Assembly (NCBI GenBank): GCA_963920705.1
Contig: OY987226.1
Location: 23,631,636-23,695,635 of the forward strand
Length of the DNA stretch: 64,000 nucleotides
Origin: Odiellus spinosus
Lineage: Eukaryota; Arthropoda; Arachnida; Opiliones; Phalangiidae
Direction of reading: 5' to 3'
Below, piece after piece: positions 2,621 through 64,000 of the stretch. A program made the position numbers and the translations under genes. The notes beneath the pieces were generated by a model. It was not told the DNA's origin, ran no database searches, and worked only from the letters and a program-made list of their open reading frames with translations. Within the stretch, counting starts at the first letter, position 1; every line of letters starts with the position of its first letter.

Positions 2621-2692
2621 GCAATGGTGGTATAGCGGTGAGAATAGCTGCCTTCCAAGCAATTGACCTGGGTTCGACTCCCGGCCATTGCA
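2621..2692 (+). tRNA. tRNA-Gly (UCC), first gene of the array
   Basis: 72 nt with the majority fold: acceptor GCAATGG pairs with CCATTGC, discriminator A, anticodon loop CTTCCAA. Two changes fall in the variable and T-stem region (AATTGACCTGG instead of AGTTGACCCGG), leaving a weaker T-stem. The gene starts 57 bp after the end of the inverted-repeat element, with ordinary array spacer upstream. Confidence 0.88.
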
Positions 2693-2905
2693 AAAGGATT
2701 TTTTTAAATAAAAATTGAAGTGAAAGAGCCAACAGTTAGGGTGATATATCAGCTAATTATTCAGCAGTGGTGGTAAAGCGGTGAGAATAGCTGCCTTCCA
2801 AGCAGATGACCCGGGTTCGACTCCCGGCCTTGCATAAGCATTTTTTTTAATAAAAATTGAAGTGAAAGTGCCAACAGTTAGGGAGACATATCATCTACTT
2901 ATCGA

Positions 2906-2976
2906 GCAATGGTGGTATAGCGGTGAGAAAGCTGCCTTACAAGCAGTTGACCCGGGTTCGACTCCCGGCCATTGCA
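2906..2976 (+). tRNA. tRNA-Gly-like with anticodon UAC (Val codon GUA)
   Basis: The anticodon loop reads CTTACAA within an intact GCTGC/GCAGT stem, changing C35 to A. The gene also carries the one-base D-arm deletion (GAGAAAGC), so it is 71 nt. Acceptor and T-arm are of majority type. GlyRS is known to use C35 and C36 as identity elements, so charging with glycine would be reduced. It may be a pseudogene. Confidence 0.75.
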
Positions 2977-3189
2977 AAAGGAATTTTTTCATAAAAATTG
3001 AAGTGAAAGAGCCAAAAGTTAGGGTAATATATCAGCTAATTATTCAGCAGTGGTGGTAGAGCGGTGAGAATAGCTGCCTTCCAAGCAGTTGACCCAGGTT
3101 CGACTCCCGGCCATTGCATAAGCATTTTTTTTTAATAAAAATTGAAGTGAAAGTGCCAACAGTTAGGGTGACATTAATCTATTCATCGA

Positions 3190-3261
3190 GCGATGGTGGT
3201 ATCGCCTTGAGAATAGCTGCCTTCCAAGCAGTTGACCCGGGTTCGACTCCCGGCCATTGCA
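3190..3261 (+). tRNA. tRNA-Gly (UCC) with altered acceptor and D-arm
   Basis: Starts GCGATGG and has TATCGCCTTGAG in place of TATAGCGGTGAG, so the D-loop GG and A box are changed. Anticodon loop CTTCCAA, T-arm and B box are of majority type. Loss of the D-loop GG suggests a pseudogene despite the intact length. Confidence 0.6.
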
Positions 3262-3903
3262 AATGTATTTTTTTTTATAAAAATTGAAGTGAAAGTGCCA
3301 ACAGTTAGGGTGATATATCGGGCAATTTTTCAGCAATGGTGGTATAGCGGTGAGAATAGCTGCCTTCCAACCAGTTGACCCGGGTTCGACTCCCGGCCAT
3401 TGCAAATGTATTTTTTTTTATAAAAATTGAAGTGAAAGTGCCAACAGTTAGGGTGATATATCGGGCAATTTTTCAGCAATGGTGGTATAGCGGTGAGAAT
3501 AGCTGCCTTCCAAGCAGTTGAGCCGGGTTCGACTCCCGGCCATTGCAAACGGATTTTTTTAATAAAAATTGAAGTGAAAGTGCCAACAGTTAGGGTGACA
3601 TATCATTTATCTATCGAGCAATGGTGGTATAGCGGTGAGAATAGCTGCCTTCCAAGCAGTTGACCCGGGTTCGACTCCCGGCAGTTGCAAAAGGATTTTT
3701 TTTAATAAAAATTGAAGTGAAAGTGCCAACAGTTAGGGTGACATATCATCTAATTATCGAGCAATGGTGGTATAACGGTGAGAATAGCTGCCTTCCAAGT
3801 AGTTGACCTGGGTTCGACTCCCGGCCATTGCAAAAGGATTTTTTTTAATAAAAATTGAAGTGAAAGAGCCAACAGTTAGGGTGATATATCAGCTAATTAT
3901 TCA

Positions 3904-3975
3904 GCAGTGGTGGTAAAGCGGTGAGAATAGCTGCCTTAAAAGCAGATGACCCGGGTTCGACTCCCGGCCATTGCA
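3904..3975 (+). tRNA. tRNA-Gly-like with anticodon UAA (Leu codon UUA)
   Basis: Anticodon loop CTTAAAA; both C35 and C36 of UCC are replaced by A. The acceptor is GCAGTGG/CCATTGC with one G-U pair, and the D-arm reads GTAAAGCGG. The matching gene one block earlier (2764) retains UCC, so this is a local change in one duplicate. Confidence 0.65.
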
Positions 3976-4896
3976 TAAGCATTTTTTTTAATAAAAATTG
4001 AAGTGAAAGTGCCAACAGTTAGGGAGACATATCATCTACTTATCGAGCAATGGTGGTATAGCGGTGAGAAAGCTGCCTTCCAAGCAGTTGACCCGGGTTC
4101 GACTCCCGGCCATTGCAAAAGGAATTTTTTCATAAAAATTGAAGTGAAAGAGCCAAAAGTTAGGGTGATATATCAGCTAATTATTCAGCAGTGGTGGTAA
4201 AGCGGTGAGAATAGCTGCCTTCCAAGCAGTTGACCCGGGTTCGACTCCCGGCCATTGCATAAGCATTTTTTTTAATAAAAATTGAGGTGAAAGTGCCAAC
4301 AGTCAGGGTGACATATCATCTACTTATCGAGCAATGGTGGTATAGCGGTGAGAAAGCTGCCTTCCAAGCAGTTGACCCGGGTTCGGCTCCCGGCCATTAC
4401 ATAAGGATTTTTTTTAATAAAAAGTGAAAGTGCCATCAGTTAGGGTGACATATCATCTAATTATCGAGCAATGGTGGTATAGCGGTGAGAATAGCTGGCT
4501 TCCAAGCAGTTGACCCGGGTTCGACTCCCAGCCATTGCAAAAGCAATTTTTTTAATAAAAATTGAAGTGAAAGTGCCAACAGTCAGGGTGACATATCATC
4601 TATTCATCGAGCAATGGTGGTATATAGGTGAGGATAGCTGCCTTCCAAGCAGTTGACCCGGGTTCGACTCCCGGCCATTGAAAAAGTAATTTTTTAATAA
4701 AAATTGAAGTGAAAGTGCCAACATTTAGGGTGACATATCATCTAATTATCGAGCAATGGCGGTATAGCGGTGAGAATAGCTCCCATCCAAGCAGTTGACC
4801 CGGGTTCGACTCCCGGCCATTGCAAATACAATTTTTTTTATCAAAATTGAAGTGAAAGTGCCAACAGTTAGGGTGATATAGTCGGGCAATTATTCA

Positions 4897-4968
4897 GCAA
4901 TGGTGGTATTGCTGTGAGAATAGCTGCCTGCCAAGCAGTTGAGCCGGGTTCGACTCCCGGCCATTGCA
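4897..4968 (+). tRNA. tRNA-Gly-like with anticodon GCC
   Basis: Loop CTGCCAA: U34 is replaced by G, converting the UCC isoacceptor to GCC, the anticodon that reads GGC and GGU. Stems are intact (GCAATGG/CCATTGC, GCTGC/GCAGT, CCGGG/CCCGG). The D-arm reads TATTGCTGTGAG, a weakened A box. Sister copies are at 5325, 6459, 6887, 8169 and 8599, all with the same GCC loop and GTTGAGCC variable region. It remains a glycine tRNA by its anticodon. Confidence 0.85.
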
Positions 4969-6886
4969 AAAGAATTTTTTTAATAAAAATTGAAGTGAAA
5001 GTGCCAACAGTTAGGGTGACATATCACCTAATAATCGAGCAATGGTGGTATGGCGGTGAGAATAGCTGCCTTCCAAGCAGTTGACCCGGGTTCGACTCCC
5101 GGCCATTGAAAAAGTAATTTTTTAATAAAAATTGAAGTGAAAGTGCCAACATTTAGGGTGACATATCGTCTAATTATCGAGCAATGGTGGTATAGCGGTG
5201 AGAATAGCTCCCTTCCAAGCAGTTGACCCGGGTTCGACTCCCGGCCATTGCAAATACAATTTTTTTTATCAAAATTGAAGTGAAAGTGCCAACAGTTAGG
5301 GTGATATAGTCGGGCAATTATTCAGCAATGGTGGTATGGCTGTGAGAATAGCTGCCTGCCAAGCAGTTGAGCCGGGTTCGACTCCCGGCCATTGCAAAAG
5401 AATTTTTTTTAAAAAAATTGAAGTGAAAGTGCCAACAGTTAGGGTGACATATCACCTAATAATCGAGCAATGGTGGTATGGTGGTGAGAATAGCTGCCTT
5501 CCAAGTAGTTGACCCGGGTTCGACTCCCGGCCACTGCAAAAGCAATTTTTTAATAAAAATTGAAGGGAAAGTGCCAACAGTTAGGGAGACATATCATCTA
5601 CTTATCGAGCAATGGTGGTATAGCGGTGAGAAAGCTGCCTTCCAAGCAGTTGACCCGGGTTCGACTCCCGGCCATTGCAAAAGGAATTTTTTCATAAAAA
5701 TTGAAGTGAAAGAGCCAAAAGTTAGGGTGATATATCAGCTAATTATTCAGCAGTGGTGGTAAAGCGGTGAGAATAGCTGCCTTCCAAGCAGTTGACCCGG
5801 GTTCGACTCCCGGCCATTGCATAAGCATTTTTTTTAATAAAAATTGAGGTGAAAGTGCCAACAGTCAGGGTGACATATCATCTACTTATCGAGCAATGGT
5901 GGTATAGCGGTGAGAAAGCTGCCTTCCAAGCAGTTGACCCGGGTTCGGCTCCCGGCCATTACATAAGGATTTTTTTTAATAAAAAGTGAAAGTGCCATCA
6001 GTTAGGGTGACATATCATCTAATTATCGAGCAATGGTGGTATAGCGGTGAGAATAGCTGGCTTCCAAGCAGTTGACCCGGGTTCGACTCCCAGCCATTGC
6101 AAAAGCAATTTTTTTAATAAAAATTGAAGTGAAAGTGCCAACAGTTAGGGTGACATATCATCTATTCATCGAGCAATGGTGGTATATAGGTGAGGATAGC
6201 TGCCTTCCAAGCAGTTGACCCGGGTTCGACTCCCGGCCATTGAAAAAGTAATTTTTTAATAAAAATTGAAGTGAAAGTGCCAACATTTAGGGTGACATAT
6301 CATCTAATTATCGAGCAATGGCGGTATAGCGGTGAGAATAGCTCCCTTCCAAGCAGTTGACCCGGGTTCGACTCCCGGCCATTGCAAATACAATTTTTTT
6401 TATCAAAATTGAAGTGAAAGTGCCAACAGTTAGGGTGATATAGTCGGGCAATTATTCAGCAATGGTGGTATTGCTGTGAGAATAGCTGCCTGCCAAGCAG
6501 TTGAGCCGGGTTCGACTCCCGGCCATTGCAAAAGAATTTTTTTAATAAAAATTGAAGTGAAAGTGCCAACAGTTAGGGTGACATATCACCTAATAATCGA
6601 GCAATGGTGGTATGGCGGTGAGAATAGCTACCTTCCAAGCAGTTGACCCGGGTTCGACTCCCGGCCATTGAAAAAGTAATTTTTTAATAAAAATTGAAGT
6701 GAAAGTGCCAACATTTAGGGTGACATATCATCTAATTATCGAGCAATGGTGGTATAGCGGTGAGAATAGCTCCCTACCAAGCAGTTGACCCGGGTTCGAC
6801 TCCCGGCCATTGCAAATACAATTTTTTTTATCAAAATTGAAGTGAAAGTGCCAACAGTTAGGGTGATATAGTCGGGCAATTATTCA

Positions 6887-6958
6887 GCAATGGTGGTATG
6901 GCTGTGAGAATAGCTGCCTGCCAAGCAGTTGAGCCGGGTTCGACTCCCGGCCATTGCA
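6887..6958 (+). tRNA. tRNA-Gly-like with anticodon GCC
   Basis: Same class as 4897, but the D-arm reads TATGGCTGTGAG and is closer to majority. All three helices pair. One of six GCC copies confined to 4897-8670. Confidence 0.85.
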
Positions 6959-7454
6959 AAAGAATTTTTTTTAAAAAAATTGAAGTGAAAGTGCCAACAG
7001 TTAGGGTGACATATCACCTAATAATCGAGCAATGGTGGTATGGTGGTGAGAATAGCTGCCTTCCAAGTAGTTGACCCGGGTTCGACTCCCGGCCACTGCA
7101 AAAGCAATTTTTTAATAAAAATTGAAGTGAAAGTGCCAACAGTTAGGGTGATATATCGGGCTATTATTCAGCAATGGTGGTATAGCGGTGAGAATAGCTG
7201 CCTTCCAAGCAGTTGACCCGGGTTCGACTCCCGGCCATGGCAAAAGCAATTTTTTGATAAAAATTGAAGTGAAAGTGCCAACAGTTAGGGTGATATATCG
7301 GGCAATTATTCAGCAATGGTGGTATAGCGGTGAGAATAGCTGCCTTCCAAGCAGTTGAGCCGGGTTCGACTCCCGGCCATTGCAAACGGATTTTTTTAAT
7401 AAAAATTGAAGTGAAAGTGCCAACAGTTAGGGTGACATATCATCTAATTATCGA

Positions 7455-7526
7455 GCAATGGTGGTATAGCGGTGAGAATAGCTGCCTCTCAAGCAGTTGA
7501 CATGGGTTCGACTCCCGGCCATTGCA
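7455..7526 (+). tRNA. tRNA-Gly-like with anticodon CUC (Glu codon GAG)
   Basis: Loop CTCTCAA in the usual stem, anticodon CUC. The variable/T-stem region reads GTTGACATGGG, which breaks part of the T-stem. Duplicated at 9167 through the 1712-bp block duplication. The acceptor stem remains that of tRNA-Gly. Confidence 0.65.
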
Positions 7527-9596
7527 AAAGGATTTTTTTTAATAAAAATTGAAGTGAAAGAGCCAAGAGTTAGGGTGATATATCAGGTAATTATTCAGCA
7601 GTGGTGGTAAAGCGGTGAGAATAGCTGCCTTCCAAGCAGATGATCCGGGTTCGACTCCCGGCCATTGCATAAGCATTTTTTTTAATAAAAATTGAGGTGA
7701 AAGTGCCAACAGTTAGGGTGACATATCATCTACTTATCGAGCAATGGTGGTATAGCGGTGAGAAAGCTGCCTTCCAAGCAGTTGACCCGGGTTCGACTCC
7801 CAGCCATTGCAAAAGCAATTTTTTTAATAAAAATTGAAGTGAAAGTGCCAACAGTTAGGGTGACATATCATCTATTCATCGAGCAATGGTGGTATATAGG
7901 TGAGGATAGCTGCCTTCCAAGCAGTTGACCCGGGTTCGACTCCCGGCCATTGAAAAAGTAATTTTTTAATAAAAATTGAAGTGAAAGTGCCAACATTTAG
8001 GGTGACATATCATCTAATTATCGAGCAATGGCGGTATAGCGGTGAGAATAGCTCCCTTCCAAGCAGTTGACCCGGGTTCGACTCCCGGCCATTGCAAATA
8101 CAATTTTTTTTATCAAAATTGAAGTGAAAGTGCCAACAGTTAGGGTGATATAGTCGGGCAATTATTCAGCAATGGTGGTATTGCTGTGAGAATAGCTGCC
8201 TGCCAAGCAGTTGAGCCGGGATCGACTCCCGGCCATTGCAAAAGAATTTTTTTAATAAAAATTGAAGTGAAAGTGCCAACAGTTAGGGTGACATATCACA
8301 TAATAATCGAGCAATGGTGGTATGGCGGTGAGAATAGCTGCCTTCCAAGCAGTTGACCCGGGTTCGACTCCCGGCCATTGAAAAAGTAATTTTTTTATAA
8401 AAATTGAAGTGAAAGTGCCAACATTTAGGGTGACATATCATCTAATTATCGAGCAATGGTGGTATAGCGGTGAGAATAGCTCCCTACCAAGCAGTTGACC
8501 CGGGTTCGACTCCCGGCCATTGCAAATACAATTTTTTTTTTATCAAAATTGAAGTGAAAGTGCCAACAGTTAGGGTGATATAGTCGGGCAATTATTCAGC
8601 AATGGTGGTATGGCTGTGAGAATAGCTGCCTGCCAAGCAGTTGAGCCGGGTTCGACTCCCGGCCATTGCAAAAGAATTTTTTTTAAAAAAATTGAAGTGA
8701 AAGTGCCAACAGTTAGGGTGACATATCACCTAATAATCGAGCAATGGTGGTATGGTGGTGAGAATAGCTGCCTTCCAAGTAGTTGACCCGGGTTCGACTC
8801 CCGGCCACTGCAAAAGCAATTTTTTAATAAAAATTGAAGTGAAAGTGCCAACAGTTAGGGTGATATATCGGGCTATTATTCAGCAATGGTGGTATAGCGG
8901 TGAGAATAGCTGCCTTCCAAGCAGTTGACCCGGGTTCGACTCCCGGCCATTGCAAAAGCAATTTTTTGATAAAAATTGAAGTGAAAGTGCCAACAGTTAG
9001 GGTGATATATCGGGCAATTATTCAGCAATGGTGGTATAGCGGTGAGAATAGCTGCCTTCCAAGCAGTTGAGCCGGGTTCGACTCCCGGCCATTGCAAACG
9101 GATTTTTTTAATAAAAATTGAAGTGAAAGTGCCAACAGTTAGGGTGACATATCATCTAATTATCGAGCAATGGTGGTATAGCGGTGAGAATAGCTGCCTC
9201 TCAAGCAGTTGACATGGGTTCGACTCCCGGCCATTGCAAAAGGATTTTTTTTAATAAAAATTGAAGTGAAAGAGCCAAGAGTTAGGGTGATATATCAGGT
9301 AATTATTCAGCAGTGGTGGTAAAGCGGTGAGAATAGCTGCCTTCCAAGCAGATGATCCGGGTTCGACTCCCGGCCATTGCATAAGCATTTTTTTTAATAA
9401 AAATTGAGGTGAAAGTGCCAACAGTTAGGGTGACATATCATCTACTTATCGAGCAATGGTGGTATAGCGGTGAGAAAGCTGCCTTCCAAGCAGTTGACCC
9501 GGGTTCGGCTCCCGGCCATTACATAAGGATTTTTTTTAATAAAAAGTGAAAGTGCCATCAGTTAGGGTGACATATCGTCTATTTATCGAGCAATGG

Positions 9597-9608
9597 TGGT
9601 ATAGCGGT
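9597..9608 (+). promoter_or_regulatory. Pol III A box (representative)
   Basis: TGGTATAGCGGT inside the gene, matching the A-box region of animal tRNA-Gly-UCC. Most copies share it; variants with TATTGCTG, GTAAAGCGG or GGAAAAGCGG are weaker matches. Confidence 0.8.
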
Positions 9609-9639
9609 GAGAATAGCTGCCTTCCAAGCAGTTGACCCG

Positions 9640-9650
9640 GGTTCGACTCC
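9640..9650 (+). promoter_or_regulatory. Pol III B box (representative)
   Basis: GGTTCGACTCC fits the B-box consensus GGTTCGANNCC. Copies reading GACTACCGGG, GACTAACGG or GATTTCCGGG depart from it at the last positions. Confidence 0.85.
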
Positions 9651-9668
9651 CGGCCATTGCAAAAGCAA

Positions 9669-9676
9669 TTTTTTTT
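9669..9676 (+). terminator. Pol III T-run terminator (representative)
   Basis: Eight T residues starting eight bases after the mature 3' end. Nearly all copies have a run of five to nine T at this distance. A few, such as the copy at 30480, have it interrupted by a C. Confidence 0.85.
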
Positions 9677-9732
9677 ATAAAAATTGAAGTGAAAGTGCCA
9701 ACAGTTAGGGTGACATATCATCTAATTATCGT

Positions 9733-12700
9733 GCAATGGTGGTATAGCGGTGAGAATAGCTGCCTTCCAAGCAATTGACCTGGGTTCGACTCCCGGCCAT
9801 TGCAAGAGGATTTTTTTTAATAAAAATTGAAGCGAAAGAGCCAACAGTTAGGGTGATATATCAGCTAATTATTCAGCAGTGGTGGTAAAGCGGTGAGAAT
9901 AGCTGCCTTCCAAGCAGATGACCCGGGTTCGACTCCCGGCCTTGCATAAGCATTTTTTTAATAAAAATTGAAGTGAAAGTGCCAACAGTTAGGGAGACAT
10001 ATCATCTACTTATCGAGCAATGGTGGTATAGCCTTGAGAATAGCTGCCTTCCAAGCAGTTGACCCGGGTTCGACTCCCGGCCATTGCCAAAGGATTTTTT
10101 TAATAAAAATTGAAGTGAAAGTGCCAACATTTAGGGTGACATATCATCTAATTATCGAGCAATGGTGGTATAGCGGTGAGAATAGCTGCCTTCCAAGCAG
10201 TTGACCCGGGTTCGACTCCCGATCATTGCAAATGTATTTTTTTTTATAAAAATTGAAGTGAAAGTGCCAACAGTTAGGGTGATATATCGGGCAATTATTC
10301 AGCAATGGTGGTATAGCGGTGAGAATAGCTGCCTTCCAAGCAGTTGAGCCGGGCGCGACTCCCGGCCATTGCAAACGGATTTTTTTAATAAAAATTGAAG
10401 TGAAAGTGCCAACAGTTAGGGTGACATATCATCTATTTATCGAGCAATGGTGGTATAGCGGTGAGAATAGCTGCCTTCCAAGCAGTTGACCCGGGTTCGA
10501 CTCCCGGCAGTTGCAATAGGATTTTTTTTTAATAAAAATTGAAGTGAAAGTGCCAACAGTTAGGGTGACATATCATCTAATTATCGAGCAATGGTGGTAT
10601 AGCGGTGAGAATAGCTGCCTTCCAAGCAGTTGACCTGGGTTCGACTCCCGGCCATTGCAAAAAGATTTTTTTTAATAAAAATTGAAGTGAAAGAGCCAAC
10701 AGTTAGGGTGATATATCAGCTAATTATTCAGCAGTGGTGGTAAAGCGGTGAGAATAGCTGCCTTCCAAGCAGATGATCCGGGTTCGACTCCCGGCCATTG
10801 CATAAGCATTTTTTTTAATAAAAATTGAAGTGAAAGTGCCAACAGTTAGGGTGACATATCATCTAATTATCGAGCAATGGTGGTATAGCGGTGAGAAAGC
10901 TGCCTTCCAAGCAGTTGACCCGGGTTCGACTCCCGGCCATTGCAAAAGGAATTTTTTCATAAAAATTGAAGTGAAAGAGCCAAAAGTTAGGGTGATATAT
11001 CAGCTAATTATTCAGCAGTGGTGGTAAAGCGGTGAGAATAGCTGCCTTCCAAGCAGTTGACCCGGGTTCGACTCCCGGCCATTGCATAAGCATTTTTTTT
11101 TAATAAAAATTGAAGTGAAAGTGCCAACAGTTAGGGTGACATATCATCTACTTATCGAGCAATGGTGGTATAGCGGTGAGAAAGCTGCCTTCCAAGCAGG
11201 TGACCCGGGTTCGGCTCCCGGCCTTTACATAAGCATTTTTTTAATAAAAAGTGAAAGTACCATCAGTTAGGGTGACATATCATCTAATTATCGAGCAATG
11301 GTGGTATAGCGGTTAGAATAGCTGGCTTCCAAGCTGTTGACCTTGGTTCGACTCCCGGCCATTGCAAAAGGAATTTTTTAATAAAAATTGAAGTGAAAGT
11401 GCCAACAGTTAGGGTGACATATCATCTATTCATCGAACAATGGTGGTATAGCGGTGAGAATAGCTGCCTTCCAAACAGTTGACCCGGGTTCGACTCCCGG
11501 CCTTTGCAAAAGGATTTTTTTAATAAAAATTGAAGTGAAAGTGCCAACAGTTAGGGTGACATATCATCTAATAAACGGGCAATGGTGGTATAGCGGTGAG
11601 AATAGCTGCCTTCCAAGCAGTTGACCCGGGTTCGACTCCCGGCCATTGCAATAGGATTTTTTTTAATAAAAATTGAAGTGAAAGTGCCAACAGTTAGGGT
11701 GACATATCATCTAATTATCGAGCAATGGTGGTATAGCGGTGAGAATAGCTGCCTTCCAAGCAGTTGACCCGGGTTCGACTAACGGCCATTGAAAAGATAT
11801 TTTTTAAATAAAAATTGAAGTGAAAGAGACAACAGTTAGGGTGATATATCAGCTAATTATTCAACAGTGGTGGTAAAGCGGTGAGAATAGCTGCCTTCCA
11901 AGCAGATGACCCGGGTTCGACTCCCGGCCATTGCATAAGCATTTTTTTTAATAAAAATTGAAGTGAAAGTGCCAACAGTTAGGGAGACATATCATCTACT
12001 TATCGAGCAATGGTGGTATAGCGGTGAGAAAGCTGCCTTGCAAGCAGTTCACCCGGGTTCGACTCCCGGCCATTGCAAAAGGAATTTTTTCATAAAAATT
12101 GAAGTGAAAGAGCCAAAAGTTAGGGTTATATATCAGCTAATTATTCAGCAGTGGTGGTATAGCGGTGAGAATAGCTGCCTTCCAAGCAGTTGACCTGGGT
12201 TCGACTCCCGGCCATTGCAAGAGGATTTTTTTTAATAAAAATTGAAGCGAAAGAGCCAACAGTTAGGGTGATATATCAGTTAATTATTCAGCAGTGGTGG
12301 TAAAGCGGTGAGAATAGCTGCCTTCCAAGCAGATGACCCGGGTTCGACTCCCGGCCTTGCATAAGCATTTTTTTAATAAAAATTGAAGTGAAAGTGCCAA
12401 CAGTTAGGGAGACATATCATCTACTTATCGAGCAATGGTGGTATAGCCTTGAGAATAGCTGCCTTCCAAGCAGTTGACCCGGGTTCGACTCCCGGCCATT
12501 GCCAAAGGATTTTTTTAATAAAAATTGAAGTGAAAGTGCCAACATTTAGGGTGACATATCATCTAATTATCGAGCAATGGTGGTATAGCGGTGAGAATAG
12601 CTGCCTTCCAAGCAGTTGACCCGGGTTCGACTCCCGATCATTGCAAATGTATTTTTTTTTATAAAAATTGAAGTGAAAGTGCCAACAGTTAGGGTGATAT

Positions 12701-14065
12701 ATCGGGCAATTATTCAGCAATGGTGGTATAGCGGTGAGAATAGCTGCCTTCCAAGCAGTTGAGCCGGGCTCGACTCCCGGCCATTGCAAACGGATTTTTT
12801 TAATAAAAATTGAAGTGAAAGTGCCAACAGTTAGGGTGACATATCATCTATTTATCGAGCAATGGTGGTATAGCGGTGAGAATAGCTGCCTTCCAAGCAG
12901 TTGACCCGGGTTCGACTCCCGGCAGTTGCAATAGGATTTTTTTTTAATAAAAATTGAAGTGAAAGTGCCAACAGTTAGGGTGACATATCATCTAATTATC
13001 GAGCAATGGTGGTATAGCGGTGAGAATAGCTGCCTTCCAAGCAGTTGACCTGGGTTCGACTCCCGGCCATTGCAAAAAGATTTTTTTTAATAAAAATTGA
13101 AGTGAAAGAGCCAACAGTTAGGGTGATATATCAGCTAATTATTCAGCAGTGGTGGTAAAGCGGTGAGAATAGCTGCCTTCCAAGCAGATGATCCGGGTTC
13201 GACTCCCGGCCATTGCATAAGCATTTTTTTTAATAAAAATTGAAGTGAAAGTGCCAACAGTTAGGGTGACATATCATCTAATTATTGAGCAATGGTGGTA
13301 TTGCGGTGAGAAAGCTGCCTTCCAAGCAGTTGACCCGGGTTCGACTCCCGGCCATTGCAAAAGTAATTTTTTCATAAAAATTGAAGTGAAAGAGCCAAAA
13401 GTTAGGGTGATATATCAGCTAATTATTCAGCAGTGGTGGTAAAGCGGTGAGAATAGCTGCCTTCCAAGCAGTTGACCCGGGTTCGACTCCCGGCCATTGC
13501 ATAAGCATTTTTTTTTAATAAAAATTGAAGTGAAAGTGCCAACAGTTAGGGTGACATATCATCTACTTATCGAGCAATGGTGGTATAGCGGTGAGAAAGC
13601 TGCCTTCCAAGCAGGTGACCCGGGTTCGGCTCCCGGCCTTTACATAAGCATTTTTTTAATAAAAAGTGAAAGTACCATCAGTTAGGGTGACATATCATCT
13701 AATTATCGAGCAATGGTGGTATAGCGGTTAGAATAGCTGGCTTCCAAGCTGTTGACCTTGGTTCGACTCCCGGCCATTGAAAAAGGAATTTTTTAATAAA
13801 AATTGAAGTGAAAGTGCCAACAGTTAGGGTGACATATCATCTATTCATCGAACAATGGTGGTATAGCGGTGAGAATAGCTGCCTTCCAAACAGTTGACCC
13901 GGGTTCGACTCCCGGCCTTTGCAAAAGGATTTTTTTAATAAAAATTGAAGTGAAAGTGCCAACAGTTAGGGTGACATATCATCTAATAAACGGGCAATGG
14001 TGGTATAGCGGTGAGAATAGCTGCCTTCCAAGCAGTTGACCCGGGTTCGACTCCCGGCCATTGCA
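9733..14065 (+). repeat. tRNA block 1c, 31 gene copies in a 2415-bp duplication
   Basis: Gene starts: 9733, 9876, 10017, 10159, 10302, 10444, 10588, 10731, 10874, 11015, 11159, 11295, 11437, 11579, 11722, 11864, 12007, 12148, 12291, 12432, 12574, 12717, 12859, 13003, 13146, 13289, 13430, 13574, 13710, 13852, 13994. Genes 9733-11579 match 12148-13994 at a constant offset of 2415 bp. Copies at 11437, 11864 and 13852 begin ACAA or ACAG, so base pair 1-72 is lost. Confidence 0.93.
12007..12077 (+). tRNA. tRNA-Gly-like with anticodon UGC (Ala codon GCA)
   Basis: Loop CTTGCAA, anticodon UGC, with the one-base D-arm deletion (71 nt) and GTTCACCC in the variable region. Sister copies at 14565 and 15561 arose by block duplication. 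The acceptor lacks the G3-U70 pair that defines alanine identity, so Ala charging is unlikely. Confidence 0.7.
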
Positions 14066-14136
14066 AAGGGATTTTTTTTTATAAAAATTGAAGTGAAAGT
14101 GCCATCAGTTAGGGTGAAATATCAACTAATTATCGA

Positions 14137-16198: not shown

Positions 16199-16268
16199 TA
16201 AGCATTTTTTTAATAAAAATTGAAGTGAAAGTGCCAACAGTTAGGGTGACATATCATCTACTTATCGA

Positions 16269-18461: not shown

Positions 18462-18532
18462 AAAGGATTTTTTTTAATAAAAATTGAAGTGAAAGTGCCA
18501 ACAGTTAGGGTGACATATCATCTAATTATCGA

Positions 18533-18568
18533 GCAATGGTGGTATAGCGGTGAGAATAGCTGCCTTCC
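18533..18568 (+). pseudogene. 5' half of a tRNA-Gly interrupted by a retrotransposon
   Basis: Nucleotides 1-36 of a majority-type gene, ending TGCCTTCC, so the break falls directly after the third anticodon base. The next base (18569) begins the 5' UTR of the non-LTR element. The gene's 3' half is not found at the other end of the insertion except for a short remnant. Confidence 0.92.
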
Positions 18569-18764
18569 GGAGACTCTAGTTAGCTCTCGTGGAGTGCGGT
18601 TGTTTTTTCTCGCTCTCCACGTTTCGCCTTTTCCTCGGTCTTTCTTATCGTGTTTCGGGTGGATTTAGTTTGTAGATTTTTTGTTCGTTACCCTTTCGCT
18701 AATCTTCAGTTTTTACGCGAGAGTTTTCTTCCGATACCGGTTTTCCTTCGGGAATTCCGCGAAT
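18569..18764 (+). other. Retrotransposon 5' UTR
   Basis: 196 bp between the tRNA junction and the first likely ORF1 ATG. It contains an inverted pair, CGTGGAG and CTCCACG, near 18590-18620 that could form a hairpin. Base composition shifts sharply from the array. Confidence 0.65.
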
Positions 18765-53707: not shown

Positions 53708-53779
53708 GCAATGGAGGTATAGCGGTGAGAATAGCGGCCTTATAAGCAGTTGACTCGGGTTCGGCTCCCGGCCATTGCA
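53708..53779 (+). tRNA. tRNA-Gly-like with anticodon UAU (Ile codon AUA)
   Basis: Loop CTTATAA. The counterparts at 46521, 40467 and 32884 retain CTTCCAA, so two bases changed in this copy alone after the block duplication. The stem is GCGGC, mismatched to GCAGT, in all of them. Confidence 0.6.
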
Positions 53780-56103
53780 TAAGGGTTTTTTTTATAAAAA
53801 GTGAAAGTGCCAACAGTTAGGGTGACATATCATTTAAATATCGAGCAATTGTGGTATAGCGGTGTGAATAGCTGCCTTCCAAGCAGTTGACCCGGGTTCG
53901 ACTCCCGGCCATTGCAAAAGCAATTTTTTTAATAAAAATTGAAGTGAAAGTGCCAACAGTTAAGGTGATATATCAGGTAATTATTCAGCAATGGTGGTAT
54001 AGCGGTGAGAATAGCTGCCTTCCAAGCAGTTGACCCGGGCTCGACTCCCGGCCATTGCAAAAGGAATTTTTTCATAAAAATTGAAGTGAAAGAGCCAACA
54101 GTTAGGGTGATATATCTGGCAATTATTCAGCAGTGGTGGTATAGCGGTGAGAATAGCTGCCTTCCAAGCAGTGGACCCGGGCTCGACTCCCGGCCATTGC
54201 AAAAGGATATTTTTCATAAAAATTGAAGTGAAAGTGACAACAGTTAGGGTGACATATCATCTAATTATCGAGCAATGGTGGTATAGCGGTGAGAATAGCT
54301 GCCTTCCAAGCACTTGACCCGGGTTCGACACCCGGTCATTGCAAAAGGAGTTTTTTCATAAAAATTGAAGTGAAAGTGCCAACAGTTAGGGTGACATATC
54401 AGCTAATTATCGAGCAATGGTTGTATAGCGGTGAGAATAGCTGCCTTCCAAGCAGTTGACCCGGGTTCGACTCCCGGCCATTGCAAATGATATTTTTTTA
54501 ATAAAAATTGAAGTGAAAGTGCCAACAGTTAGGGTGATATATCATCTAATTATCGAGCAATGGTGGTATAGCGGTGAGAATAGCTGCCTTCCAAGCACTT
54601 GACCCGGGTTCGACACCCGGCCATTGCAAAAGGAATTTTTTCATAAAAATTGAAGTGAAAGAGCCAACAGTTAGGGTGATATATCTGTCAATTATTCAGC
54701 AGTGGTGGTATAGCGGTGAGAATAGCTGCCTTCCAAGCAGTGGACCCGGGCTCGACTCCCGGCCATTGCAAAAGGATATTTTTCATAAAAATTGAAGTGA
54801 AAGTGACAACAGTTAGGGTGACATATCATCTAATTATCGAGCAATGGTGGTATAGCGGTGAGAATAGCTGCCTTCCAAGCACTTGACCCGGGTTCGACAC
54901 CCGGTCATTGCAAAAGGAGTTTTTTCATAAAAATTGAAGTGAAAGTGCCAACAGTTAGGGTGACATATCAGCTAATTATCGAGCAATGGTTGTATAGCGG
55001 TGAGAATAGCTGCCTTCCAAGCAGTTGACCCGGGTTCGACTCCCGGCCATTGCAAATGATATTTTTTTAATAAAAATTGAAGTGAAAGTGCCAACAGTTA
55101 GGGTGATATATCGTGCAAATATTCAGCAATGGTGGTATAGCGGTGAGAATAGCTGCCTTCCAAGCAGTTGACCCGGGTTCGACTCCCGGTCATTGCATAA
55201 GGATTTTTTTTTATAAAAAGTGAAAGTGCCAACAGTTAGGGTGACATATTACATACTTATCGAGCAATGGTGGTATAGCGGTGAGAATAGCTGCCTTACA
55301 AGCAGTTGACTCGGGTTCGGCTCCCGGCCATTACATAAGGATTTTTTTTATAAAAAGTGAAAGTGCCAACAGTTAGGGTGACATATCATCTAATTATCGA
55401 GCAATTGTGGTATAGCGGTGTGAATAGCTGCCTTCCAAGCAGTTGACCCGGGTTCGACTCCCGGCCATTGCATAAGGATTTTTTTTTTATAGAAAGTGAA
55501 AGTACCAACAGTCAGGGTGACATATCATATACTTATCGAGCAATGGAGGTATAGCGGTGAGAATAGCGGCCTTCCAAGCAGTTGACTCGGGTTCGGCTCC
55601 CGGCCATTACATAAGGGTTTTTTTTATAAAAAGTGAAAGTGCCAACAGTTAGGGTGACATATCATTTAATTATCGAGCAATTGTGGTATAGCGGTGTGAA
55701 TAGCTGCCTTCCAAGCAGTTGACCCGGGTTCGACTCCCGGCCATTGCAAAAGCAATTTTTTTAATAAAAATTGAAGTGAAAGTGCCAACAGTTAAGGTGA
55801 TATATCAGGTAATTATTCAGCAATGGTGGTATAGCGGTGAGAATAGCTGCCTTCCAAGCAGTTGACCCGGGCTCGACTCCCGGCCATTGCAAAAGGAATT
55901 TTTTCATAAAAATTGAAGTGAAAGAGCCAACAGTTAGGGTGATATATCTGGCAATTATTCAGCAGTGGTGGTATAGCGGTGAGAATAGCTGCCTTCCAAG
56001 CAGTTGACCCGGGCTCGACTCCCGGCCATTGCAAAAGGAGATTTTTCATAAAAATTGAAGTGAAAGTGCCAACAGTTAGGGTGACATATCATCTAATAAT
56101 CGA

Positions 56104-56175
56104 GCAATGGTAGTATTGCGGTGAGAATAGCTGCCTTCTAAGCAGTTGAGCCGGGTTCGACTCCCAACCATTGCA
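56104..56175 (+). tRNA. tRNA-Gly-like with anticodon UCU (Arg codon AGA)
   Basis: Loop CTTCTAA. Further changes are TAGTATTGCGG in the D-arm, GAGCCGGG, and CCCAACC in the T-arm. The 1834-bp duplicate at 57938 keeps CTTCCAA. Probably a pseudogene. Confidence 0.6.
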
Positions 56176-59100
56176 AAAGCAATTTTTTTAATAAAAATTG
56201 AAGTGAAAGAGCCAACAGTTAGGGTGATATATCGGGCAATTATTCAGCAGTGGTGGTATAGCGGTGAGAATAGCTGCCTTCCAAGCAGTTGACCCGGGTT
56301 CGACTCCCGGCCATTGCAAAAGCATTTTTTTTAATAAAAATTGAAGTGAAAGTGCCATCAGTTAGGGTGAAATATCACCTAATTATCGAGCAATGGTGGT
56401 ATAGCAGTGAGAATAGCTGCCTTCCAAGCAGTTGACCCGGGTTCGACTCCCGGTCATTGCAAAAGCAATTTTTTTTAATAAAAATTGAAGTGAAAGTGCC
56501 AACAGTTAAGGTGATATATCAGGCAATTATTCAGCAATGGTGGTATAGCGGTGAGTTTAGCTGCCTTCCAAATAGTTGACCCGGGCTCGACTCCCGGCCA
56601 TTGCAAAAGGAATTTTTTCATAAAAATTGAAGTGAAAGAGTCAACAGTTAGGGTGATATATCAGGCAATTATTCAGCAGTGGTGGTATAGCGGTGAGAAT
56701 AGCTGCCTTCCAAGCAGTTGACCCGGGTTCGCCTCCCGGCCATTGCAAAAGAATTTTTTTTAATAAAAATTGAAGTGAAAGTGCCAACAGTTAAGGTGAT
56801 ATATCAGGCAATTATTCAGCAATGGTGGTATAGCGGTGAGTATAGCTGCCTTCCAAATAGTTGACCCGGGCTCGACTCCCGGCCATTGCAAAAGGAATTT
56901 TTTCATAAAAATTGAAGTGAAAGAGTCAACAGTTAGGGTGATATATCAGGCAATTATTCAGCAGTGGAGGTATAGCGGTGAGAATAGCGGCCTTCCAAGC
57001 AGTTGACTCGGGTTCGGCTCCCGGCCATTACATAAGGGTTTTTTTTATAAAAAGTGAAAGTGCCAACAGTTAGGGTGACATATCATCTAATTATCGAGCA
57101 ATTGTGGTATAGCGGTGTGAATAGCTGCCTTCCAAGCAGTTGACCCGGGTTCGACTCCCGGCCATTGCATAAGGTATTTTTTTAATAAAAAGTGAAAGTG
57201 CCATCAGTTAGGGTGACATATCATCTAATTATCGAGCAATGGTGGTATAGCGGTGAGAATAGCTGCCTTCCAAGCAGTTGACCCGGGTTCGACTCCCGGC
57301 CATTGCATAAGGATTTTTTTTTATAGAAAGTGAAAGTACCAACAGTCAGGGTGACATATCATATACTTATCGAGCAATGGAGGTATAGCGGTGAGAATAG
57401 CGGCCTTCCAAGCAGTTGACTCGGGTTCGGCTCCCGGCCATTACATAAGGTTTTTTTTTATAAAAAGTGAAAGTGCCAACAGTTAGGGTGACATATCATT
57501 TAATTATCGAGCAATTGTGGTATAGCGGTGTGAATAGCTGCCTTCCAAGCAGTTGACCCGGGTTCGACTCCCGGCCATTGCAAAAGCAATTTTTTTAATA
57601 AAAATTGAAGTGAAAGTGCCAACAGTTAAGGTGATATATCAGGTAATTATTCAGCAATGGTGGTATAGCGGTGAGAATAGCTGCCTTCCAAGCAGTTGAC
57701 CCGGGCTCGACTCCCGGCCATTGCAAAAGGAATTTTTTCATAAAAATTGAAGTGAAAGAGCCAACAGTTAGGGTGATATATCTGGCAATTATTCAGCAGT
57801 GGTGGTATAGCGGTGAGAATAGCTGCCTTCCAAGCAGTTGACCCGGGCTCGACTCCCGGCCATTGCAAAAGGAGATTTTTCACAAAAATTGAAGTGAAAG
57901 TGCCAACAGTTAGGGTGACATATCATCTAATAATCGAGCAATGGTAGTATTGCGGTGAGAATAGCTGCCTTCCAAGCAGTTGAGCCGGGTTCGACTCCCA
58001 ACCATTGCAAAAGCAATTTTTTTAATAAAAATTGAAGTGAAAGAGCCAACAGTTAGGGTGATATATCGGGCAATTATTCAGCAGTGGTGGTATAGCGGTG
58101 AGAATAGCTGCCTTCCAAGCAGTTGACCCGGGTTCGACTCCCGGCCATTGCAAAAGCATTTTTTTTAATAAAAATTGAAGTGAAAGTGCCATCAGTTAGG
58201 GTGAAATATCACCTAATTATCGAGCAATGGTGGTATAGCGGTGAGAATAGCTGCCTTCCAAGCAGTTGACCCGGGTTCGACTCCCGGTCATTGCAAAAGC
58301 AATTTTTTTTAATAAAAATTGAAGTGAAAGTGCCAACAGTTAAGGTGATATATCAGGCAATTATTCAGCAATGGTGGTATAGCGGTGAGTATAGCTGCCT
58401 TCCAAATAGTTGACCCGGGCTCGACTCCCGGCCATTGCGAAAGGAATTTTTTCATAAAAATTGAAGTGAAAGAGTCAACAGTTAGGGTGATATATCAGGC
58501 AATTATTCAGCAGTGGTGGTATAGCGGTGAGAATAGCTGCCTTCCAACCAGTTGACCCGGGTTCGCCTCCCGGCCATTGCAAAAGAATTTTTTTTAATAA
58601 AAATTGAAGTGAAAGTGCCATCAGTTAGGGTGAAATATCTTCTTATTATCGAGCAATGGTGGTATAGCGGTGAGAATAGCTACCTTCCGAGCGGTTGACC
58701 CGGGTTCGACTCCCGGCCATTGCAAAAGGTTTTTTTTATAAAAATTGAAGTGAAAGTGCCAACAGTTAAGGTGATATATCAGGCAATTATTCAGCAATGG
58801 TGGTATAGCGGTGAGTATAGCTGCCTTCCAAATAGTTGACCCGGGCTCGACTCCCGGCCATTGCAAAAAGACTTTTTTTAATAAAAATTGAAGTGAAAGT
58901 GCCAACATTTGGGGTGACATATCATCTAATTATCGAGCAATGGTGGTATGGCGGTGAGAATAGCTGCCTTCCAAGCAGTTGACCCGGGTTCGACCCCCGG
59001 CCATTGCAAAAGGAGTTTTTTCATAAAAATTGAAGTGAAAGTGCCAACAGTTAGGGTGACATATCATCTAATTATCGAGCAATGGTGGTATAGCGGTGAG

Positions 59101-60340
59101 AATAGCTGCCTTCGAAGCAGTTGACCCGGGTTCGACTCCCGGCCATTGAAAATAATATTTTTTTTAAAAAAAATTGAAGTGAAAGTGCCAACAGTTAGGG
59201 TGATATATGGTGGAGTTATTCAGCAATGGTGGTATAGCGGTGAGAATAGCTGCCTTCCAAGCAGTTGACCCGGGTTCGACTCCCGGCCATTGCAAAAGGA
59301 ATTTTTTCATAAAAATTGAAGTGAAAGAGCCAACAGTAGGGTGATATATCGGGTAATTATTCAGCAGTGGTGGTATAGCGGTGAGAATAGCTGCCTTCCA
59401 AGCAGTTGACCCGGGTTCGACTCCCGGCCATTGCATAAGTATTTCTTTTAATAAAAATTGAAGTGAAAGTGCCAACAGTTAGGGTGACATATCATCTACT
59501 TATCGAGCAATGGTGGTATAGCGGTGAGAAAGCTGCCTTCCAAGCAGTTGACCCGGGTTCGACTACCGGGCATTGAAAAAGGATTTTTTTTTAATAAAAA
59601 TTGAAGTGAAAGTGCCAACAGTTAGGGTGACATATCATCTATTCATCGAGCAATGGTGGTATAGCGGTGAGAATAGCTGCCTTCAAAGCAATTGACCCGG
59701 GTTCGACTCCCGGCCATTGCAACAGGAATTTTTTAATCAAAATTGAAGTGAAAGTGCCAACATTTAGGGTGACATATCATCTAATCATCGAGCAATGGTG
59801 GTATAGCGGTGATAATAGCTGCCTTCCAAGCAGATGACCCGGGTTCGACTCCCGGCCATTGCAAATGCATTTTTTTTCATAAAAATAGGGTGACATATCA
59901 TCTAATAATCGAGCAATGGTGGTATAGCGGTGAGAATGGGTGCCTTCCAAGCAGTTGACCCGGGTTCGACTCCCGGCCATTGCAAAAGCAATTTTTCTAA
60001 TAAAAACTGAAGTGAAAGTGCCAACAGTTAGGGTGATATATCGGGAAATTAATCAGCAATGGTGGTATAGCGGTGAGAATAGCTGCCTTCCAAGCAGTTG
60101 ACCCGGGTTCAACTCCCGGCCATTGACAAATGATTTTTTTAATAACAATTGAAGTGAAAGTGCCAACAGTTAGGGTGACACATCATCTATTCATCGAGCA
60201 ATGGTGGTATAGCGGTGAGAATAGCTGCCTTCAAAGCAGTTGACCCGGGTTCGACTCCCGGCCAATGCAAAAGCAATTTTTTTAATAAAAATTGAAGTGA
60301 AAGTGCCAACAGATAGGGTGATATATCGGGAAATTAATCA

Positions 60341-60412
60341 GCAATGGTGGTATAGCGGTGAGAGTAGCTGCCTTCAAAGCAGTTGACCCGGGTTCGACTC
60401 CCGGCCATTGCA
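60341..60412 (+). tRNA. tRNA-Gly-like with anticodon UCA
   Basis: Loop CTTCAAA with GAGAGTAGC in the D-arm instead of GAGAATAGC. Its counterpart at 49902 has an extra change (CAAAACAG) that breaks the anticodon stem, so this copy is either the better preserved or a corrected version. Confidence 0.85.
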
Positions 60413-61192
60413 AAAGGAATTTTTTCATAAAAATTGAAGTGAAAGAGCCATAAGTCAGAGTGATATATCTGCTAACTATTCAGCAGTGTTGGTAAAGCGG
60501 TGATAATAGCTGCCTTCCAAGCAGTTGACCCGGGTTCGACTCCCGGCCATTGCATAAGGATTTTTTTTAATAAAAATTGAAGTGAAAGTGCCAACAGTTA
60601 GGGTGACATATCATCTATTTATCGAGCAATGGTGGTATAGCGGTGAGAAAGCTGCCTTCCAAGCAGTTGACCCGGGTTCGGCTCCCGGCCATTACATAAG
60701 GATTTTTTTTAATAAAAAGTGAAAGTGCCATCAGTTAGGGTGACATATCATCTAATTGTCGAGCAATGGTGGTATAGCGATGAGAATAGCTGCCTTCAAA
60801 GCAGTTGACCCGGGTTCGACTACCGGGCATTGTAAAAGGATTTTTTTTTAATAAAAATTGAAGTGAAAGTGCCAAAAGTTAGGGTGACATATCATCTATT
60901 CATCGAGCAATGGTGGTACAGCGGTGAGAAAAGCTGCGTTCAAAGCAGTTGACCCGGGTTCGACTCCCGGCCATTGCATAAGGAATTTTTTAAATAAAAA
61001 TTGAAGTGAAAGTGCCATCAGTTAGGGTGACATATAATCTAATTGTTGAGCAATGGTGGTATAGCGGTGAGAATAGCTGCCTTCCAAGCAGTTGACCCGG
61101 GTTCGATTTCCGGGCATTGCGAAAGGTTTATTTTTAATAAAAATTGAAGTGAAAGTGCCAACAGTTAGGGTGACATATCATCTATTCATCGA

Positions 61193-61264
61193 GCAATGGT
61201 GGTATAGCGGTGAGAATAGCTGCCTTCAAAGCAGTTGACCCGGGTTCGACTCCCGGCCATTGCA
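61193..61264 (+). tRNA. tRNA-Gly-like with anticodon UCA, otherwise consensus
   Basis: Duplicate of 50754 at offset 10439, identical by eye. It shows that the single-base anticodon variant has been copied without further decay. Confidence 0.9.
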
Positions 61265-62027
61265 ATAGGAATTTTTTAATCAAAATAGAAGTGAAAGTGC
61301 CAACATTTAGGGTGACATATCATCTAATCATCGAGCAATGGTGATATAGCGGTGAGAATAGCTGCCTTCAAAGCAGTTGACCCGGGTTCGACTCCCGGCC
61401 ATTGCAAATGCATTTTTTTTTAATAAAAATAGGGTGACATATCATCTAATAATCGAGCAATGGTGGTATAGCGGTGAGAATAGCTGCCTTCCAAGCAGTT
61501 GACCCGGGTTCGACTCCCGGCCATTGCAAAGGCAATTCTTTTTAATAAAAATTGAAGTGAAAGTGCCAACAGTTAGGGTGATATATCGGGCAATTATTCA
61601 GCAATGGTGGTATAGCGGTGAGAATAGCTGCCTTCCAAGCAGTTGACCCGGGTTCGACTCCCGGCCATTGCTAAAGGATTTTTTTAATAAAAATTGAAGT
61701 GAAAGTGCCAACAGTTAGGGTGACATATTATCTAATAATCGAGCAATGGTGGTATAGCGGTGAGAATAGCTGCCTTCCAAGCAGTTGACCCGGGTTCGAC
61801 TCCCGGCCATTGAAAAAGCAATTTTTTTAATAAAAATTGAAGTGAAAGTGCCATCAGTTAGGGTGAAATATCATCTAATTATCGAGCAATGGTGGTATAG
61901 CGGTGAGAATAGATGCCTTCCAAGCAGTTGACCGGGTTCGACTCCCGGCCGTTGCAAAAGGATTTTTTTTAATAAAAATTGAAGTGAAAGTGCCTACAGT
62001 TAGGGTGATATATCGGGCAATTATTCA

Positions 62028-62099
62028 GCAATGGTGGTATAGCGGTGAGAATAGCTGCCTTCCAAGCAGTTGACCCGGGTTCGACTCCCGGCCATTGCA
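62028..62099 (+). tRNA. tRNA-Gly (UCC), majority type
   Basis: Full consensus over 72 nt with a run of eight T at 62107-62114. Spacer of the ATTCA type upstream, showing that both spacer families accompany intact genes. Confidence 0.96.
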
Positions 62100-62171
62100 A
62101 AAGCAATTTTTTTTAATAAAAATTGAAGTGAAAATGCCAACAGTTAGGGTGATATATCGGGCAATTATTCA

Positions 62172-63914
62172 GCAATGGTGGTATAGCGGTGAGAATAGCT
62201 GCCTTCCAAGCAGTTGACCCGGGTTCGACTCCCGGCCCTTGCAAAAGGATTTTTTTAATAAAAATTGAAGTGAAAGTGCCAACAGTTAGGGTGACATATC
62301 ATCTAATTGTTGAGCAATGGTGGTATAGCGGTGAGAATAGCTGCCTTCCAAGCAGTTGACCCGGGTTCGACTACCGGGCATTGCAAAAGGATTATTTTTA
62401 ATAAAAATTGAAGTGAAAGTGCCAACAGTTAAGGTGACATATCATCTAATCATCGAGCAATGGTGATATAGCGGTGAGAATAGCTGCCTTCAAAGCAGTT
62501 GACCCGGGTTCGACTCCCGCCCATTGCAAATGCATTTTTTTTTAATAAAAATAGGGTGACATATCATCTAATAATCGAGCAATGGTGGTATAGCGGTGAG
62601 AATAGCTGCCTTCCAAGCAGTTGACCCGGGTTCGACTCCCGGCCATTGCAAAAGCAATTTTTTTTAATAAAAATTGAAGTGAAAGTGCCAACAGTTAGGG
62701 TGATATATCGGGAAATTAATCAGCAATGGTGGTATAGCGGTGAGAATAGCTGCCTTCCAAGCAGTTGACCCGGGTTCGACTCCCGGCCATTGCAAAATGA
62801 TTTTTTTTAATAAAAATTGAAGTGAAAGTGCCATCAGTTTGGGTGAAATATCATCTAATTATCGAGCAATGGTGGTATAGCGGTGAGAATAGATGCCTTC
62901 CAAACAGTTGACCGGGTTCGACTCCCGGCCGTTGCAAAAGGATTTTTTTTAATAAAAATTGAAGTGAAAGTGCCTACAGTTAGGGTGATATATCGGGCAA
63001 TTATTCAGCAATGGTGGTATAGCGGTGAGAATAGCTGCCTTCCAAGCAGTTGACCCGGGTTCGACTCCCGGCCATTGCATAAGCAATTTTTTTAATAAAA
63101 ATTGAAGTGAAAATGCCAACAGTTAGGGTGATATATCGGGCAATTATTCAGCAATGGTGGTATAGCGGTGAGAATAGCTGCCTTCCAAGCAGTTGACCCG
63201 GGTTCGACTCCCGGCCATTGCAAAAGGATTTTTTTAATAAAAATTGAAGTGAAAGTGCCAACAGTTAGGGTGACATATCATCTAACTGTTGAGCAATGGT
63301 GGTATAGCGGTGAGAATAGCTGCCTTCCAAGCAGTTGACCCGGGTTCGACTACCGGGCATTGCAAAAGGGTTATATTTAATAAAAATTGAAGTGAAAGTG
63401 CCAGCAGTTAGGGTGACATATCATCTAATCATCGAGCAATGGATGTATAGCGGTGAGAATAGCTGCCTTCAAGGCAGTTGACCCGGGTTCGACTCCCGGC
63501 CATTGCAATAGGAATTTTTTAATCAAAATTGAAGTGAAAGTGCCAACATTTAGGGTGACATATCATCTAATCATCGAGCAATGGTGATATAGCGGTGAGA
63601 ATAGCTGCCTTCAAAGTTCCTGACCCGGGTTCGACTCCCGCCCATTGCAAATGCATTTTTTTTTAATAAAAATAGGGTGACATATCATCTAATAATCGAG
63701 CAATGGTGGTATAGCGGTGAGAATAGCTGCCTTCCAAGCAGTTGACCCGGGTTCGACTCCCGGCCATTGCAAAGGCAATTTTTTTAATAAAAATTGAAGT
63801 GAAAGTGCCAACAGTTAGGGTGATATATCGGGCAATTATTCAGCAATGGTGGTATAGCGGTGAGAATAGCTGCCTTCCAAGCAGTTGACCCGGGTTCGAC
63901 TCCCGGCCATTGCA
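62172..63914 (+). repeat. tRNA block 2g, 13 gene copies
   Basis: Gene starts: 62172, 62314, 62457, 62579, 62723, 62866, 63008, 63151, 63293, 63436, 63578, 63700, 63843. Genes 62172-62866 resemble 63008 onwards with a period of about 840-980 bp. Most copies here have an intact majority sequence. Confidence 0.92.
63843..63914 (+). tRNA. tRNA-Gly (UCC), last complete copy in the window
   Basis: Full consensus gene followed by AAAGGATTTTTTT. The array clearly continues, since another gene begins at 63985. Confidence 0.96.
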
Positions 63915-63984
63915 AAAGGATTTTTTTAATAAAAATTGAAGTGAAAGTGCCAACAGTTAGGGTGACATATCAACTAATAATCGA

Positions 63985-64000
63985 GCAATGGTGGTATAGC
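63985..64000 (+). tRNA. tRNA-Gly, cut by the window edge
   Basis: First 16 bases of a further copy (GCAATGGTGGTATAGC) with standard upstream spacer. Confidence 0.85.

Follow-up and report, generated by a model that had tools for sequence, protein, structure and literature searches.

How does an animal genome come to carry hundreds of copies of one transfer RNA (tRNA) gene in a row, and do such copies still behave as genes? The question is raised by a 64,000-nucleotide stretch of the genome of the arachnid Odiellus spinosus (assembly GCA_963920705.1, 443 Mb in 286 contigs), located on contig OY987226.1, here called C2, at C2:23,631,636-23,695,635; this whole stretch is referred to as the window. 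An initial annotation, made from the letters alone, described it as a continuous array of about 365 tRNA-Gly genes. Here we confirm that the array is real, that it is larger than first reported and that good and damaged genes are mixed within it. The most surprising part is what an interruption of the array revealed, namely a Tx1-like group of retrotransposons lacking long terminal repeats (non-LTR) that inserts inside tRNA genes of many isotypes.

A large tRNA-Gly array

Anchoring on the B box places 365 tRNA-Gly units in the window, on the plus strand only and spanning 2,621-63,914, with a spacing of mostly 141-144 bp (commonest values 142 and 143 bp). ARAGORN returned 358 tRNAs, on the + strand throughout and beginning at 2,621. 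The Infernal check proposed in the initial annotation, performed as cmscan with the Rfam tRNA model, likewise gave 358 matches at or above the gathering score (122 + 118 + 118), including 233 of at least 50 bits (57 + 92 + 84, counted by hand). Single matches reach E values as low as about 2e-11, so chance is of no concern. Taken together, the three approaches bear out the claim of about 365 tRNA-Gly copies arranged head-to-tail on one strand in units of about 142 bp. When aligned to the array consensus, 306/365 copies carry the anticodon TCC.

As the annotation had stated, the array leaves the window at the right, where it continues to about C2:23,719,207 and ends at a 20-bp satellite. It also leaves on the left, with a further 195 and 72 ARAGORN calls. 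The contiguous stretch C2:23,591,636-23,719,207 holds 717 + 72 = 789 calls, and array sequence is seen again at 23.568 and 23.576 Mb (the DNA in between was read only in part). The 20-bp satellite adjoining the array on the right comprises about 491 copies (C2:23719202-23729020). The spacer pattern of the Gly units was also sought in viral contigs, with 0 matches.

The description of the array as continuous had to be given up: two neighbouring anchors are separated by 9,961 bp at 18.4-28.4 kb, because a retrotransposon with nested inserts (9.7 kb) interrupts the array at 18,569-28,261 and splits it in two.

A Tx1-like retrotransposon within the array

The 5' end of this retrotransposon adjoins position 36 of the tRNA in a Gly copy, and copies on contigs C44 and C17 start with the same base. 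Beyond the element, the array picks up again in the T arm of a Gly copy. The first open reading frame (ORF1) contains CCHC-like motifs, recognized by eye, and yielded no Pfam match and no homologues. ORF2 encodes an apurinic-type endonuclease (Exo_endo_phos) and a reverse transcriptase (RT; RVT_1), the combination found in Tx1 elements, and an RT homologue search gave 53 matches, mostly unnamed. The preference of Tx1 elements for multicopy RNA genes or microsatellites is likewise seen in the family, which occupies tRNA and 5S genes and whose distant relatives lie at U2, U5 and (TC)n. With its endonuclease and RT domains and this site preference, the element is putatively Tx1-like.

An ORF of the insert nested in ORF2 has no homologues that we could find. 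Ends similar to the TACCTCCCCG-type ends of this insert were also seen within or next to other retrotransposon copies (L042, L049 and L055).

Insertion inside tRNA genes of many isotypes

A genome search for copies of the element gave at least 79 matches, with 73 of 1,076 candidates scored. We examined 22 copies of at least 42% identity, the window copy included; the set leaves aside the copies at C12:3990771/3991759, C1:8202274, C18:6336635, C168:826356 and C12:3904548, which also reach 42%. Sixteen of the 22 lie in tRNA genes of eleven isotypes (three in Gly, two each in Ser, Val and Pro, and one each in Ile, Lys, Thr, Gln, Asp, Asn and Trp), one lies in a 5S gene and five have no assignable target. 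For 13/16 copies the isotype comes from tRNAs that a program called in the flank or array concerned, and for Gln, Trp and one Pro from a tRNA fragment recognized by eye. The 5S insertion (L047) is a 57% relative situated within a 5S ribosomal RNA gene of a 268-bp 5S array. No target could be read for C18:6638419, whose ends are cut by other transposons, or for C1:8223358, where a tRNA-Asp tail is followed by another transposon; the 3' end was sought and not found for C18:5650418, C13:19575963 and C12:4060862.

The insertions share not only the kind of gene but nearly the same position in it. All 14 sense-strand 3' junctions found fall shortly after the A box, within tRNA positions 22-27. Ten of 12 sense-strand junctions could be mapped by script, to positions 22 (one), 24 (four), 25 (four) and 27 (one), the other two having no intact neighbour; four were placed by eye, counting from the anticodon with a 7-nt loop, at Thr 23, Pro 25, Trp 26 and Gln 27. 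Most 3' ends carry poly-A, which may mask one or two bases at these junctions. Two copies speak against so narrow a site: the antisense Lys copy has its junction near position 33 and a rearranged 5' end, and in the window copy the 5' junction (position 36) alone survives, both lying outside 22-27.

Could the elements lie in tRNA genes merely because arrays of such genes are abundant and tolerant? Such arrays are indeed common, and a loose look at the genome gave 60,283 tRNA candidates, 63 of which were scored. Even if all of these were real, however, tRNA bodies would make up about 1% of the genome, so that finding 16 of 17 assigned copies inside them is far from chance. In addition, all the sense junctions crowd into a 6-nt stretch, and two related control copies, of 31% identity, end at (TC)n instead. 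Insertion without targeting is therefore extremely improbable.

Seven distant copies (24-34% identity) were followed as well: three lie beside U2, one beside U5 and two end at (TC)n, and one gave no result (C2:22622670). The U2 or U5 small nuclear RNA (snRNA) genes stand just downstream of these relatives (L065, L066, L067 and L069).

In three copies (L055, L056 and L059) a piece of tRNA (Asp, Asp and Ile) stands between two poly-A runs. Two of the three sit in another tRNA (Ser and Trp). Such tails of tRNA-Asp and tRNA-Ile, on elements now lodged in tRNA-Ser and tRNA-Trp, suggest that the element hops between arrays of different isotypes.

Growth of the array by block duplication

Exact repeats of up to 4,919 bp, covering many units, occur within the Gly array, and when identical units are mapped, blocks of about 42-43 units are seen to recur in changed order. 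Three of four block comparisons differ by only 2-3 substitutions and 0-3 gap columns over 2,958 to 6,650 columns. No exact unit is common to the two runs that flank the retrotransposon. These block duplications fit unequal exchange and point away from retroposition. Where a short interspersed element (SINE) would show dispersed copies with 3' tails and target duplications, the array has a fixed period, a common spacer and a single strand. The proposal that it arose by tandem amplification and not by SINE retroposition is thus upheld. With 365 head-to-tail units on one strand and one tRNA gene in each, the locus has the form of a tandem tRNA gene array, and its unequal exchange and higher-order repeats are those of a satellite.

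The unit number is as assembled, and some duplicates are exact over kilobases, as would be expected if the array or its multi-kilobase duplicates had been inflated during assembly. Scattered differences between block copies, the varying order of units, unlike flanks on the two sides and the presence of other arrays in the same style argue to the contrary, and we consider such an artefact very improbable.

Constraint on the tRNA body and state of the copies

Unequal exchange would be expected in a satellite, in which no part of the unit is constrained; the Gly array departs from a satellite in this last respect. Among 184 distinct units (from 363 Gly units), the tRNA has 78 and the spacer 51 rare variants present in three units or fewer, compared to 1 and 21 common variants present in at least 10% (Fisher 5e-7). 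At a threshold of 5% the counts are 10 in the tRNA versus 31 in the spacer, and at 20% they are 0 versus 8. Variants of the tRNA are thus often rare and seldom common, which indicates that damage arises freely in single copies and seldom spreads. When the 72-bp frame is rotated along the unit, 2/142 rotations show a mean divergence as low as that of the tRNA.

The same was found beyond the Gly array. The ratio of spacer to tRNA divergence is 2.4 for Gly (702 units), 3.5 for Ala (133), 3.9 for Lys on C4 (60), 3.1 for Lys on C5 (22) and 5.3 for Cys (22), so that in each of the five arrays measured, representing four isotypes, divergence is lowest in the tRNA body; the Gly body is more diverged than the other four. 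The contrast between rare and common variants is significant in Gly, Lys C4 and Cys.

To assess whether the copies remain usable, intactness was scored against the array's own strict consensus (A box, B box, T run, anticodon, indels and pairs). The A box is kept in 301/365 copies, the strict B box in 252/365 and a run of at least four T within 25 nt in 364/365; 32/365 have a tRNA body identical to the consensus. The initial statement that many copies look transcribable finds partial support, A box, B box and terminator occurring together in 200/365. When TCC, the absence of indels and no more than one broken pair are demanded in addition, 116/365 count as intact and 249/365 as damaged. Fifty-nine copies have an anticodon other than TCC. 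The largest such group, TCA (which pairs with UGA), comprises 23 copies with 11 distinct tRNA sequences between 35573 and 63649, two of them (50754 and 61193) perfect apart from the anticodon. If expressed, these copies are possible UGA suppressors.

Several results weigh against a functional array grown in blocks. The fourth block comparison, whose end was badly chosen, spans 6,060 columns, among them 234 gap columns, with 41 substitutions. The difference between rare and common variants falls short of significance in the Ala (p 0.075) and Lys C5 (p 0.14) arrays, and common spacer variants are partly linked, so that independence is overstated and the p values are optimistic. With the base-change spectrum fixed, base pairs are not spared (108 broken pairs versus 113.8 +- 7.2, P 0.23). 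The low number of strictly intact copies belongs here too, as does the fact that UGA-reading copies have been tolerated and multiplied. Sparing of pairs in single Gly copies had appeared in a random-change simulation (P 0.0055) and was withdrawn after the spectrum-matched result.

Some of these results lend weight to an inert tRNA-derived satellite, spreading neutrally and silent, in which the body is a leftover of its origin or is renewed by gene conversion with tRNA genes elsewhere. Most copies are damaged under the strict test, pairs are not spared, UGA-reading copies multiply, and other satellites flank the Gly array on both sides. On the other hand, changes in the body are rarely common, divergence is lowest in the body in five arrays covering four isotypes, and the terminator is almost always kept, though other spacer stretches are equally conserved. 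An inert satellite is, on balance, unlikely.

We think it probable that the locus is a satellite-like tRNA-Gly(UCC) array transcribed by RNA polymerase III (Pol III) and serving as a partly expressed reservoir, in which a Tx1-like group that inserts into tRNA genes is tolerated. Its units, each of about 142 bp with one gene, are duplicated in blocks, as under unequal exchange, while selection acting on the working copies as a pool, or gene conversion confined to the body, may maintain the tRNA. The reservoir would hold tRNA genes of which some are expressed, and its redundancy may make insertions tolerable, as the redundancy of ribosomal DNA (rDNA) does for R1 and R2.

Other single-isotype arrays in the genome

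The Gly array is one among several single-isotype arrays, which are known from part of the genome. An array of tRNA-Ala on C17 (L024-L027, C17:8319825-8341343) contains 134 copies in 159-bp units, 67 with CGC and 67 with TGC. Lys-TTT arrays occupy two loci, with 148-bp units on C4 and 149-bp units on C5, and a Cys-GCA array on C16 has units of about 154 bp. Shorter runs of Ser (161 bp), Val (150), Asp (210), Asn (219) and Pro (about 166) adjoin retrotransposons, and Ile, Thr and Lys-CTT copies are also found beside them. As in the Gly array, a few copies with other anticodons occur within the non-Gly runs. The units of the Gly (C2), Ala (C17), Lys (C4 and C5) and Cys (C16) arrays are alike in length, 142-159 bp and near nucleosome size, despite unlike spacers.

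The presence of both Gly-UCC and Ala-UGC/CGC arrays prompted the idea that they had been amplified to meet the demand of a Gly- and Ala-rich product such as silk, much as the silk-gland tRNA-Ala genes of Bombyx form a tandem cluster (as cited in PMC12308677). The idea was dropped when arrays of Lys and Cys came to light, along with runs of Ser, Val, Asp, Asn and Pro, and the Gly body, the most diverged of the five, does not favour it either; we judge it highly improbable.

For the genome at large, we are slightly inclined to the hypothesis that much of the tRNA complement behaves like rDNA, in isotype arrays that expand, decay and renew, and that a Tx1-type group uses the tRNA gene as its niche through the A box or TFIIIC, hopping between isotypes. 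The element may read the A box itself, or TFIIIC bound to it, and join the DNA just behind.

Features of the window

The coordinates of the array, the retrotransposon and the neighbouring features are collected in the table.

Table. Features of the 64,000-nucleotide window, in order of position
Feature	Position	Strand
100-bp satellite between the Gly run of the window and the next run leftward	1..992	.
Foldback-like element whose 339-bp inverted arms match perfectly, at the satellite/tRNA-array junction, left edge of the run	1057..2567	.
Left run of the tRNA-Gly array: 112 anchored units, last copy cut at tRNA position 36 (18533-18568)	2621..18568	+
Non-LTR retrotransposon, putatively Tx1-like, inserted directly after the anticodon of a tRNA-Gly copy; 3' part lost; nested inserts	18569..28261	+
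ORF1 region; ATG at 18766, in-frame stop 18867-18869, then open	18766..19571	+
ORF2 start, encoding the N-terminal region of the apurinic-type endonuclease (Exo_endo_phos)	19729..19899	+
Nested insert(s) in ORF2, DNA-transposon-like, with long imperfect inverted repeats and TACCTCCCCG-type ends; boundaries approximate	19892..26431	.
Remaining endonuclease and first part of the RVT_1 reverse transcriptase, cut off	26444..28252	+
Right run of the tRNA-Gly array: 253 anchored units, starts within the T arm of a copy and exits the window	28262..64000	+
Array block identical to 44234-49152	30597..35515	+
Array block identical to 30597-35515	44234..49152	+
Gly copy differing from the consensus tRNA by anticodon TCA alone	50754..50825	+
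Example of the consensus tRNA-Gly(TCC), one of 32 consensus-identical copies	63843..63914	+

Relation to known systems

Keno, Mutsu and Dewa are Tx1-type elements. In zebrafish, Keno targets U2, Mutsu 5S and Dewa the tRNA-Leu spacer (PMC3706591), and the relatives described here are likewise found at U2, 5S and tRNA sites. While Dewa sits in the spacer of tRNA-Leu, the junctions of the present element lie in gene bodies of eleven isotypes. Dada DNA transposons do insert inside tRNA genes, at homologous positions in many isotypes, and also in 5S and snRNA genes (PMC3706591, PMC8869645). However, they encode a DDE transposase and no RT, and they enter at nt 8-13 or in the anticodon arm with target duplications of 6-7 bp, whereas the present element has an RT, poly-A at most 3' ends and its 3' junction at nt 22-27. 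The TRE elements of dictyostelids are also non-LTR retrotransposons with tRNA targets; their insertions lie outside the gene, about 50 bp upstream or 100 bp downstream (PMC5006619), while the element described here inserts inside. Target-specific elements are further treated in PMC4640811.

As for the arrays, Nematostella and teleost tRNA clusters contain very many genes and pseudogenes, in clusters of fifty and more, which in Nematostella and zebrafish are mostly of mixed isotype (PMC2888827), and repetitive tRNA copies on zebrafish chromosome 4 have been tied to maternal tRNAs (PMC11417395). The Odiellus array resembles these clusters in abundance and clustering and differs in having one isotype with a short fixed unit. 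The SYY cluster of Arabidopsis consists of tandem tRNA genes with decayed copies at its edges, and is heterochromatic and expressed in special cells (PMC12308677); compared to the present array, which is of a single isotype, it has a mixed Ser-Tyr-Tyr unit and far fewer copies, and its expression is documented. Among arachnids, 57,824 putative tRNA pseudogenes have been counted in the spider Uloborus (PMC9912274), and tRNA copy numbers have been surveyed elsewhere (PMC9858662).

In the literature searched, mostly without subscription papers, no report of a single-isotype array this large was noticed, which is weak evidence of novelty. Nor was a report noticed of a non-LTR element at nt 22-27 of many isotypes, in a search that mostly lay outside subscription papers, including a 2004 survey of target-specific elements.

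Significance

If many animal tRNA families live in single-isotype arrays, dosage, decay and concerted evolution could be studied in them as has been done for rDNA. With the retrotransposon group, nature would offer a case of an element that meets a feature common to Pol III genes, in many different genes and at nearly the same position. It would allow a direct test of whether such an endonuclease recognizes the DNA sequence of its site or the transcription factors bound there, and a group that targets tRNA genes is a lead for gene insertion at safe sites.

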